64,000 nt of DNA from Syntrophobacterales bacterium. Its GTDB lineage: Bacteria; Desulfobacterota; Syntrophorhabdia; Syntrophorhabdales; Syntrophorhabdaceae. Position numbers and translations under genes: made by a program. The DNA lies in assembly GCA_031274925.1 (NCBI GenBank), contig JAISPL010000026.1, positions 1 through 64,000 of the forward strand, read 5' to 3'. Positions 2,079 through 5,113 of this stretch are shown here, piece by piece (the stretch's first letter is position 1; each line of letters starts with the position of its first letter). The notes under the pieces are model-generated. The model was not told where the DNA came from, ran no database searches, and saw only the letters and a program-made list of their open reading frames with translations.

Positions 2079-2104
2079 TCGGAGGAGAGGGGATCCTCCT
2101 CCGA
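2079..2104 (-). terminator. rho-independent terminator of the sigma-54 unit
   Basis: A 9-bp perfect stem (TCGGAGGAG paired with CTCCTCCGA) encloses an 8-base loop. On the minus strand the stem is followed by ACTTCTTTTGTC, a T-rich tail. It sits about 75 bases after the stop codon of the minus-strand gene at 2180-2506 and closes that short transcription unit. Confidence 0.6.
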
Positions 2105-2179
2105 GCCCGACTGTTTCTCCATAGCCAGCACTACCCTGGCTTATGCGCTCATTTATAGACCAGGGATAATCTATAAGCA

Positions 2180-2506
2180 CTACCCGGGAGTGTTTGCCTC
2201 TTCCACAGGGAAGAGACCGAAGGAAACTACAATGTTTTTCTTTATAAGGACCGAGAGAGCGATGGATACTCCCCCGCCTATCTCAATGCCGCTACGCCAG
2301 AGGCTGTACCCTCTGCCGACTTTCGTTATGGCACAAGGGATATTGCGGGTCTTGAACCATTCAACCCAGCCACTCAATGATTTTGCCGATCCCACAACTT
2401 TGCTTACCCTGAAAAATTGGTCCCGGACCTGATGATTCTCCTGAGACCCTGAGTCTTCCACCTTCAGGGGTTCCTCCGTCTGCACCTTCAGTCTGGTTGG
2501 TTCCAT
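2180..2506 (-). CDS. unknown 108-residue protein under a sigma-54 promoter
   Basis: I do not recognise this protein. The start is well supported: AAGGAGGA lies four bases before the ATG. The first 30 residues are polar and likely disordered. Residues 31-77 (DQFFRVSKVVGSAKS... to the GIEIGGG stretch) are rich in aromatic and basic residues and look like a small folded domain. Residues 75-100 are hydrophobic (GVSIALSVLIKKNIVVSFGLF) and could form a weak membrane segment or a buried strand pair. The gene stands alone, with a sigma-54 promoter about 170 bases upstream, two operator-like palindromes beyond that, and a terminator behind it. That arrangement argues for a real, tightly regulated gene. 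Function unknown. Confidence 0.55.
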   Translation of the reverse strand: MEPTRLKVQTEEPLKVEDSGSQENHQVRDQFFRVSKVVGSAKSLSGWVEWFKTRNIPCAITKVGRGYSLWRSGIEIGGGVSIALSVLIKKNIVVSFGLFPVEEANTPG

Positions 2507-2675
2507 GAGGTCCTCCTTTTCATTCTTTCCCTTATGTCCGCTCCCCGTGTTGCACGATCAAAAGCGGCGATGCAGGGTGTTTTTGCGGGTCAGGAGTCAT
2601 TGATATTGGGGTATGGTAACACATGGTTTCGCTTTTCCGGCCAATAACCGGCGCCCCCGATCCCTTTTTAAGGAG

Positions 2676-2694
2676 AAAGCAACAGGTATGCCAA
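2676..2694 (-). promoter_or_regulatory. sigma-54 (-24/-12) promoter
   Basis: On the minus strand the sequence reads TTGGCATACCTGTTGCTTT. It has the invariant GG and GC dinucleotides exactly 10 bases apart and matches TTGGCA-N6-TTGCTT of the sigma-54 consensus; only the less conserved CG after TGGCA differs. Transcription should start near 2667 and run toward the gene at 2506, leaving a leader of about 160 bases. Sigma-54 promoters need an AAA+ activator bound upstream, which fits the palindromes at 2758-2803. Confidence 0.7.
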
Positions 2695-2757
2695 AAATTG
2701 AACATGCCCAACATGCAGGAATTATTATTGATATTGACAGCGCATGTGTGCGATAAA

Positions 2758-2803
2758 CTGACAAATTTGTCAGGACGTAGATCTGTGATGACGAAATTGT
2801 CAG
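2758..2803. promoter_or_regulatory. tandem palindromic activator sites upstream of the sigma-54 promoter
   Basis: CTGACAAATTTGTCAG at 2758-2773 is a perfect 16-bp palindrome. A near copy, TGACGAAATTGTCA, lies at 2789-2802. Their centres are 30 bases apart, about three helical turns, so two dimers would sit on the same face of the DNA. They lie about 100 and 130 bases upstream of the predicted start site, the usual position for enhancer sites of sigma-54 activators. The activator is not encoded in this window. Confidence 0.6.
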
Positions 2804-3365: not shown

Positions 3366-3890
3366 ATGAATAACAGAGGCTATATAATCGTACTCACTGG
3401 CAATGGAAAGGGAAAGACCACGTCCGCCCTCGGCATGGCCATGAGGGCAGTGGGCCAAGACCTGAAAGTAATTATGCTTCAATTCATCAAAGGCTCGTGG
3501 CGTTGCGGCGAGCATGAAATAGCGAGGAGGTTAGGACCCTGCCTGACCATCAGGCAGTTGGGGGGCGGCTTCGTCAATGCAAAAAACCAGGATCACGAAG
3601 ACGTGAATGGGGTGGCTGAGGCCTGGGCCGTATGCAAAGGAGTACTGTCTGCCGGTGAATATGACATGGTGATACTGGATGAGATCAATAATGCCTTAGC
3701 GTACGGGTTGCTTCCCGCAGACGATGTCCTGGACGCGCTCCGGCAACGCCCTGCCGGACTGCATGTAGTCCTTACCGGCAGGGACGCCCATCCACGTCTC
3801 ATTGAAGCAGCGGATATTGTCACGGAGTTTAATGAAGTGAAGCATGTCTTTCAGAATGGTGAGGCAGCGAGAAAGGGGATAGAGTACTGA
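3366..3890 (+). CDS. cobO: cob(I)yrinic acid a,c-diamide adenosyltransferase
   Basis: CobO/BtuR-type corrinoid adenosyltransferase of 174 residues. It transfers the 5'-deoxyadenosyl group of ATP to cob(I)alamin or its precursors in the cytosol, supplying adenosylcobalamin. The P-loop GNGKGKTT is at residues 12-19, followed by MLQFIKGSW near residue 40. The Walker B-like stretch MVILDEINNAL lies near residue 100 and the family motif LTGRDAHP near residue 138. Length and motif order are typical. No other cobalamin synthesis gene is nearby, so this may act in salvage. Two B12-binding radical SAM proteins encoded in this window (13827 and 40700) would be plausible users of cobalamin, although such enzymes generally do not need the adenosyl form. 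Confidence 0.92.
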   Translation: MNNRGYIIVLTGNGKGKTTSALGMAMRAVGQDLKVIMLQFIKGSWRCGEHEIARRLGPCLTIRQLGGGFVNAKNQDHEDVNGVAEAWAVCKGVLSAGEYDMVILDEINNALAYGLLPADDVLDALRQRPAGLHVVLTGRDAHPRLIEAADIVTEFNEVKHVFQNGEAARKGIEY

Positions 3891-4135: not shown

Positions 4136-5113
4136 ATGGCAGAGTTTCGCAGAGACCCCATATCAGGCAACTGGGTAGTATCCGGTTTAATCATGGCCAA
4201 GGGCGACTCCGCCGGCGAATGCCCGTTCTGTCCGGGCAATGAAAACCTGACCCCACCGACCATAAAACAATACCAGGGCAGCGAAAATGAATGGCGGATC
4301 CGATGTTTTGCTGCCGCCAACCCCATATTTCTGTCTGACATAGACGAGGCAAAAAGGGCCGAGGGGCTTTATGACAAGATGGGTAATGTGGGAGCCCATG
4401 AGATCATAGTGGAGAACAGGTCCCACACCAAAAGTCTTTCGAGTTTTACTGAGGACGAGTTCCTCCTCCTCATGGCGTTCTACATGGAGAGGATTCGCGA
4501 TCTAAAGCAGGAAAAAAGATTCAAACATATCCAAATATTCAAGAACCACGGGGAACTTGCGGGCTCTTTTCTCTTTCATCCCCACTCCCACCTGCTTGCC
4601 ATGCCAATCGTGCCGCAAATGATTGAGACGGAGCTTTCAAACACAAAAAGGCGTTACCTTCAGAAGGAACGCTGTCTTTTTTGCGACATTATTGCCCAGG
4701 AAATCAGGCAAAACAAAAGGATCGTTAGTATCAACGCCAACTTCGCTGCCATATGCCCTTTTGCCTCACGGTTTCCTTACGAGGTCTGGGTAATGCCCAG
4801 ATTTCATGACGATTGTTTCGAACGCCCCGTGGATCATGGGGTCTTACGCGACCTCACCTCTATCATGCTCGACATCATGAAGAGAATGGAAAAAGTAGTA
4901 AACGCATACAGTGTGGTGCTCCATACTTCGCCAAACATGTATAAAGACCCTTATGTCACCGATGATCTTCCTGTGAGCGAATACTTCCACTGGCGTATCG
5001 AGATACTCCCCAGGGACCTCCGGTCTTCACGATTTAAGCGGAACGACCAATTCTATGTCGTGGCCATCACGCCCGAGGAAGCGACAAGCTCACTGAAGAC
5101 ACAGAAAATTTAG
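4136..5113 (+). CDS. GalT-like nucleotidyltransferase with an altered active site
   Basis: A 325-residue member of the galactose-1-phosphate uridylyltransferase branch of the HIT superfamily. Two zinc-type CxxC pairs are present (CPFC at 29-32, CLFC at 180-183), as is the shared GAHEIIVE segment near residue 86. The catalytic triplet reads H148-P-H150-S-H152, where canonical GalT has Gln in the last position; the other copy in this window keeps Gln. The C-terminal metal-site motif HWH is HWR here, and the usual PNKFPAL segment is replaced by AANPIFL. In the wider HIT superfamily a third His is typical of hydrolases and nucleotidyl-hydrolysing enzymes. It may therefore act on another nucleotide sugar or on a dinucleoside polyphosphate. 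Family sure, substrate unknown. Confidence 0.75.
   Translation: MAEFRRDPISGNWVVSGLIMAKGDSAGECPFCPGNENLTPPTIKQYQGSENEWRIRCFAAANPIFLSDIDEAKRAEGLYDKMGNVGAHEIIVENRSHTKSLSSFTEDEFLLLMAFYMERIRDLKQEKRFKHIQIFKNHGELAGSFLFHPHSHLLAMPIVPQMIETELSNTKRRYLQKERCLFCDIIAQEIRQNKRIVSINANFAAICPFASRFPYEVWVMPRFHDDCFERPVDHGVLRDLTSIMLDIMKRMEKVVNAYSVVLHTSPNMYKDPYVTDDLPVSEYFHWRIEILPRDLRSSRFKRNDQFYVVAITPEEATSSLKTQKI

Follow-up and report, generated by a model that had tools for sequence, protein, structure and literature searches.

The window, that is, the whole 64-kb stretch of DNA analyzed here, carries on its minus strand a small unit between positions 2803 and 2079. In that direction a pair of activator sites is followed by a -24/-12 promoter, a leader, a Shine-Dalgarno sequence, an open reading frame (ORF) of 108 codons and, lastly, a hairpin with a T-rich tail; the coordinates are given in the table below. 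The small gene is real, its sigma-54 promoter is intact and its activator sites are paired; direct reading of the minus strand bore out the order and strand of all the elements that the original prediction had proposed. On the plus strand, the same part of the window contains two HAD-type phosphatase genes, one encoding an NT5C-like 5'-nucleotidase (1373-1831) and one with a weaker HAD match (317-892), as well as a cob(I)yrinic acid adenosyltransferase gene (3366-3890) followed by a galactose-1-phosphate uridylyltransferase-like gene (4136-5113).

Table. Features of the minus-strand unit in the window, and of the candidate regulatory operon and predicted regulon members in the host genome (G000)
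Feature	Position	Strand	Remarks
Distal upstream activator site	2789..2803	-	TGACAATTTCGTCA at 2802-2789; best composite match of the window begins here
Proximal upstream activator site	2758..2773	-	perfect palindrome CTGACAAATTTGTCAG
-24/-12 sigma-54 promoter	2678..2693	-	TGGCATACCTGTTGCT; TGGCAC-N5-TTGCA element
Untranslated leader	2507..2667	-	about 160 nt; start inferred from the -12 position
Shine-Dalgarno sequence	2514..2519	-	AGGAGG, 7 bases 5' of the ATG at 2506
ORF	2180..2506	-	108 codons; predicted soluble, without signal peptide (by inspection); has relatives; dN well below dS
Probable intrinsic terminator	2079..2104	-	10-pair stem, 6-nt loop, T-rich tail ACTTCTTTTG
Small exported protein (C14 operon)	L033:7067-7687	-	
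ZraS-like histidine kinase (C14 operon)	L033:5458-7077	-	
Response-regulator activator (C14 operon)	L033:3982-5334	-	
Predicted regulon member	L093:5602-6366	-	Gly-rich secreted protein, 254 residues
Predicted regulon member	L092:2564-2779	+	Tyr/Gly-rich lipoprotein, 71 residues

Judged from its sequence, the ORF is a real gene. Five further copies were found in four other genomes of the order, giving a patchy distribution (5 of the 46 genomes of the order). The relative in G029, which belongs to the same genus, aligns at 54% over the whole alignment and 62% over the core, and further copies came from profile searches: G042 has two, G044 one and G043 one, the last being cut by a contig end and recovered only with a later profile. 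Elsewhere in a sample of 395 genomes of the phylum no credible relative was detected, and viral contigs yielded none; weak matches in G011, G013, G020, G036 and G069 were judged to be spurious because of interrupted frames or low scores. Differences between the ORF and its relatives concentrate at third codon positions, and dN is far below dS wherever dS can be estimated, indicating purifying selection. The genes next to the copies differ between genomes, and the gene is therefore not part of a fixed cluster.

The protein consists of a variable N-terminus and a conserved core of 70 residues (FFxVSKxVxSxxxLxxWVxWFxxxxIPCxI...GYxLxRxGxE), with an invariant IPC and conserved aromatic residues. 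It had been described as being of unknown family, and the proposed protein searches agreed with this, since sequence searches of Pfam, NCBIfam and the PDB returned no credible family. An AlphaFold model built with three sequences reached a mean pLDDT of 57, only a strand-helix-strand-strand core being moderately confident, and a fold search of the PDB with this model gave no match below an E value of 0.3. The model suggests a small alpha/beta domain; since it is poor and the fold search found no match, no fold is claimed.

We also inspected the promoter region of the unit. The promoter is the sole zero-mismatch match to TGGCAYR-N4-TTGCW in the 64 kb and has the exact GG-N10-GC spacing that had been predicted. 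Upstream of it, the proximal and distal sites are centered 74 and 104 bp, respectively, 5' of the -24 GG, which confirms the predicted distance of 30 bp between them; calling the two palindromes near-identical was slightly generous, as the distal site is an imperfect palindrome that matches at just 5 of 7 pairs. The strong Shine-Dalgarno sequence was likewise found as described, and the predicted leader is about 160 bases long. Leader length is not conserved (about 105 nt in G029 and about 45 nt in G042), and a search against Rfam gave no match, for which reasons the idea that the leader is a structured RNA was rejected. At the other end of the unit, the 10-pair hairpin is a plausible intrinsic terminator, as had been proposed, but one that is weak taken alone, because such hairpins are no commoner in the region than in shuffled sequences (6 found versus 6.3 expected).

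Next, the upstream regions of the relatives were compared. Alignment of the upstream DNA alone between the window and G029 was uninformative, and the sites were instead read directly and then scored. The persistence of the ORF and the palindromes in relatives had been named beforehand as a test of the prediction; both are present, and four of the five relatives, from two families, retain both the site pair and a -24/-12 element, similarly spaced, although coding and leader sequences have diverged. From the distal site to the -24 GG, the distance is 103 bp in G029, 109 bp in G042, 105 bp in G043 and 106 bp in G044. The G029 promoter contains CGACATTTTTGTCG and CGACTTTTTTGTCA, 31 bp apart, together with TGGCACGGCAGTTGCT, and that of G042 contains CGACATTTTTGTCT, a degenerate second site and CGGCACGCCTATTGCT. 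In G043 and G044 the pair and the -24/-12 element precede a gene for a secreted peptide of about 90 residues, and the relative of the ORF comes second in the sigma-54 transcript predicted there. This peptide gene lies at L147:1130-1399 (-) in G044 and at L107:257-529 (-) in G043, and its product matched no Pfam family. Upstream of the second G042 copy (L028), the paired sites and the -24/-12 element are absent; an inverted repeat of 28 bp, its loop about 50 bp long (about 1213-1240 and 1293-1321), is found 5' of this copy, where the promoter would be expected, and is possibly an insertion.

To look for the same layout across the order, as the original prediction had suggested, a composite pattern (GACA-N4-TGTC followed by GGC-N7-TTGC) was searched in its 46 genomes. 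The search gave 95 matches in 40 of the 46 genomes, compared with 6 for a reversed control, and a version with nearer spacing gave 27 matches versus 4. Beyond the order, the strict pattern occurred in 2 of about 378 other genomes of the phylum. Pair spacing in the order-wide set was 29 to 33 bp, mostly 31 to 32 bp, and 15 of the 55 fetched sites were followed, in the same direction, by the activator gene. A three-part model (distal site, proximal site and -24/-12 element) was trained on 15 activator-operon promoters, with the orphan-gene loci excluded, and scored against 200 Markov-1 control sequences of 64 kb each. It ranked position 2804 (-) first in the window, at 29.2 bits versus 20.3 for the best control; when trained only on operons of other genomes, it gave the window site 24.8 versus 21.5 for the best control. 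With the same models the relatives' promoters scored 30 to 46, and the promoter-less G042 copy scored 4 to 9.

The recurrence of the layout at the G029, G042, G043 and G044 relatives and the score of the composite model against its controls make a chance arrangement very unlikely, in line with what had been argued from the window. A fortuitous combination of elements, or a relic promoter with an ORF that is not expressed under sigma-54, would fit the patchy occurrence of the gene and a terminator that does not exceed chance; given the conservation of the layout in two families, the purifying selection on the ORF and the outcome of the reversed-pattern and Markov-1 controls, we regard it as very improbable. 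On sequence grounds, sigma-54 control of the 108-codon gene is strongly supported by this conservation and by the matched regulon.

We then sought the regulator. The host genome encodes sigma-54, with one Sigma54_DBD match, and only six full-length sigma-54 activators. One of these, on contig C14, belongs to an operon whose own promoter combines a paired site of this kind with a perfect -24/-12 element. The operon encodes a small exported protein, a ZraS-like histidine kinase and the activator; next come genes for an MlaE permease and an ABC ATPase. ZraS is the best NCBIfam match of the kinase, at 196.8 of 479 bits, below the equivalog cut-off. The activator scored 462.5 of 714 bits with the AtoC model and 405 of 760 with the ZraR model, both below the equivalog cut-offs, and also matched a PEP-CTERM model below its cut-off. 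In relatives, the first gene of the operon matches Metal_resist/LTXXQ (ZraP/CpxP/Spy type), with Pfam scores above the cut-off at L110, L138 and L139 and below it at L096; the first-gene protein of the host genome matched no Pfam family, and its G029 counterpart matched weakly.

Activators encoded behind these operon promoters across the order form one ortholog group, 66 to 85% identical to the C14 protein and sharing the recognition helix ...SER(M/V)LRYK, compared with 36 to 45% identity between the C14 protein and the other five activators of the host genome. All five genomes with the ORF gene contain an ortholog of the C14 activator (at least 68% identical), and in G028 and G045, which are without the ORF gene, the best activator relative is at most 49% identical. 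Many genomes have the activator without the ORF gene, and the gene is therefore an optional regulon member. The description of the unit as a self-contained lone orphan holds only in part: relatives of the gene occur in four other genomes, the regulator predicted for it is encoded on another contig, and in G043 and G044 its counterpart stands second in the predicted transcript.

The first genes behind the order-wide promoters encode mostly secreted or envelope proteins, including Metal_resist/LTXXQ proteins, Gly-rich and Tyr-rich secreted proteins, a small lipoprotein, FecR/DUF6600, HlyD-type and outer-membrane efflux proteins, and a DegP-like protease, the protease being assigned by inspection. 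The Gly-rich protein and the lipoprotein listed in the table are the products of the other two clear targets in the host genome. Since the shared sites precede the ZraSR-like operon and mostly secreted or envelope genes, this family of promoters speaks for envelope stress. The original prediction had offered a stress, nitrogen, envelope or syntrophy response; envelope stress is the part that these promoters favor, and nitrogen and syntrophy found no support. Because the same layout stands before the ZraSR-like sensor operon and other envelope genes, the gene is probably switched on by that sensor.

Another of the five remaining activators, for instance one responding to nitrogen or to a specific signal, might instead drive a real sigma-54 unit, the likeness to the ZraSR-like operon being incidental or due to cross-talk. 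Besides the existence of these five proteins, such a reading could draw on the window sites, which are TGAC-type and score below most other members of a regulon in which CGAC-type sites are commoner, and on G028, where composite matches are present although the best activator relative is just 49% identical to the C14 protein. However, the stretches read around the genes of the other activators showed no site pair accompanied by a -24/-12 element, and the sites in the window agree in type, in the spacing within the pair and in distance with those of the C14 operon and its orthologs; activation by one of the other five is accordingly rather unlikely. We consider it likely that the unit combines a sigma-54 promoter with a gene that belongs to a lineage-specific envelope-stress regulon under the C14 ZraSR-like system.

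As to how such control might operate, we infer the envelope signal, the phosphorylation and binding steps and the role of the protein as follows. The ZraS-like membrane histidine kinase of C14 would phosphorylate the response regulator that is paired with it. This regulator, a sigma-54 activator of the AAA+ type, would bind the two YGACA-N4-TGTCR sites that lie about 74 and 104 bp 5' of the promoter. By DNA looping, the bound activator would reach the sigma-54 RNA polymerase on the -24/-12 element and start transcription. The small soluble product could then assist the envelope response as an accessory effector within the cytoplasm, which we propose as its most likely role. In other envelope responses, products of a regulon are known to feed back negatively, PspA acting on PspF and ZraP on ZraSR. 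Feedback is the main alternative here, behind the effector role: the protein would be a small cytoplasmic binder of the activator or kinase that tunes the response. This precedent, the apparently cytoplasmic location of the protein, control like that of the pathway's own operon and the finding of the gene only in genomes that have the activator are all compatible with feedback. Most activator-bearing genomes do without the gene, which argues against a core part of the circuit, and neither sequence nor fold connected the protein with a known regulator, so that we hold a feedback regulator to be improbable and retain the accessory effector as the preferred role.

The candidate system was compared with described ones. 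It resembles ZraPSR of E. coli and Salmonella, where ZraR works with sigma-54, in having a membrane kinase and a sigma-54-activating response regulator and, in some relatives, a small, apparently periplasmic protein of LTXXQ/Metal_resist type, and it is likewise apparently self-regulated from a sigma-54 promoter with upstream sites. It differs from ZraPSR in that its kinase and regulator fall below the ZraS/ZraR equivalog cut-offs and all three genes lie in one direction. The C14 system would work like ZraPSR but, by these cut-offs, is not ZraPSR. In E. coli the direct ZraR targets are zraP, zraSR and mgtA (PMC7657598), and the regulon predicted here is therefore wider. Sigma-54 activator regulons of Desulfovibrio vulgaris, reconstructed by comparative genomics (PMC4641369), follow the same logic, with autoregulated operons for the activators, sites farther upstream and promoters of the -24/-12 type. 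Outside the order of the window the strict pattern hardly occurs, and the running text of that paper contains neither zraP nor a GACA or TGTC string. Sigma-54 control of envelope stress through upstream activator sites is also shared with QseF/GlrR (glmY, rpoE) and PspF (psp), which were compared by family scans; on the C14 activator, the models for PspF and GlrR give lower scores than those for AtoC and ZraR.

If this assignment is right, a single orphan promoter becomes a regulon that can be tested, in which the activator is named, the site is defined and the targets are mostly envelope genes of an order that has received little study, and a ZraSR-like system, which in E. coli is an almost private circuit, would be able to run a broad envelope response. 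An ORF family of unassigned role would also gain a condition in which to seek its function. More tentatively, and with somewhat less than even confidence, the order may possess a previously undescribed sigma-54 envelope-stress regulon with its own site (YGACA-N4-TGTCR pairs about 30 to 33 bp apart) that has recruited lineage-specific small proteins, the ORF family being a new cytoplasmic effector or feedback regulator without a relative in known families.

Distances in the order-wide set fall into two classes, 101 to 106 and 112 to 118 bp, which is suggestive of helical phasing, with the distribution cut by the limits used (the search ended at 118 bp and training was limited to 100 to 119 bp). 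Some members of the predicted regulon are not obviously envelope proteins, as with the small zinc-ribbon proteins at L132 and L143. Genes of this zinc-ribbon family lie behind regulon-type promoters in G032 and G027 (L132:1517-1804 (+) and L143:4064-4351 (-), respectively), and a zinc-ribbon gene (L028:778-1116 (-)) is divergent to the promoter-less second copy of G042.
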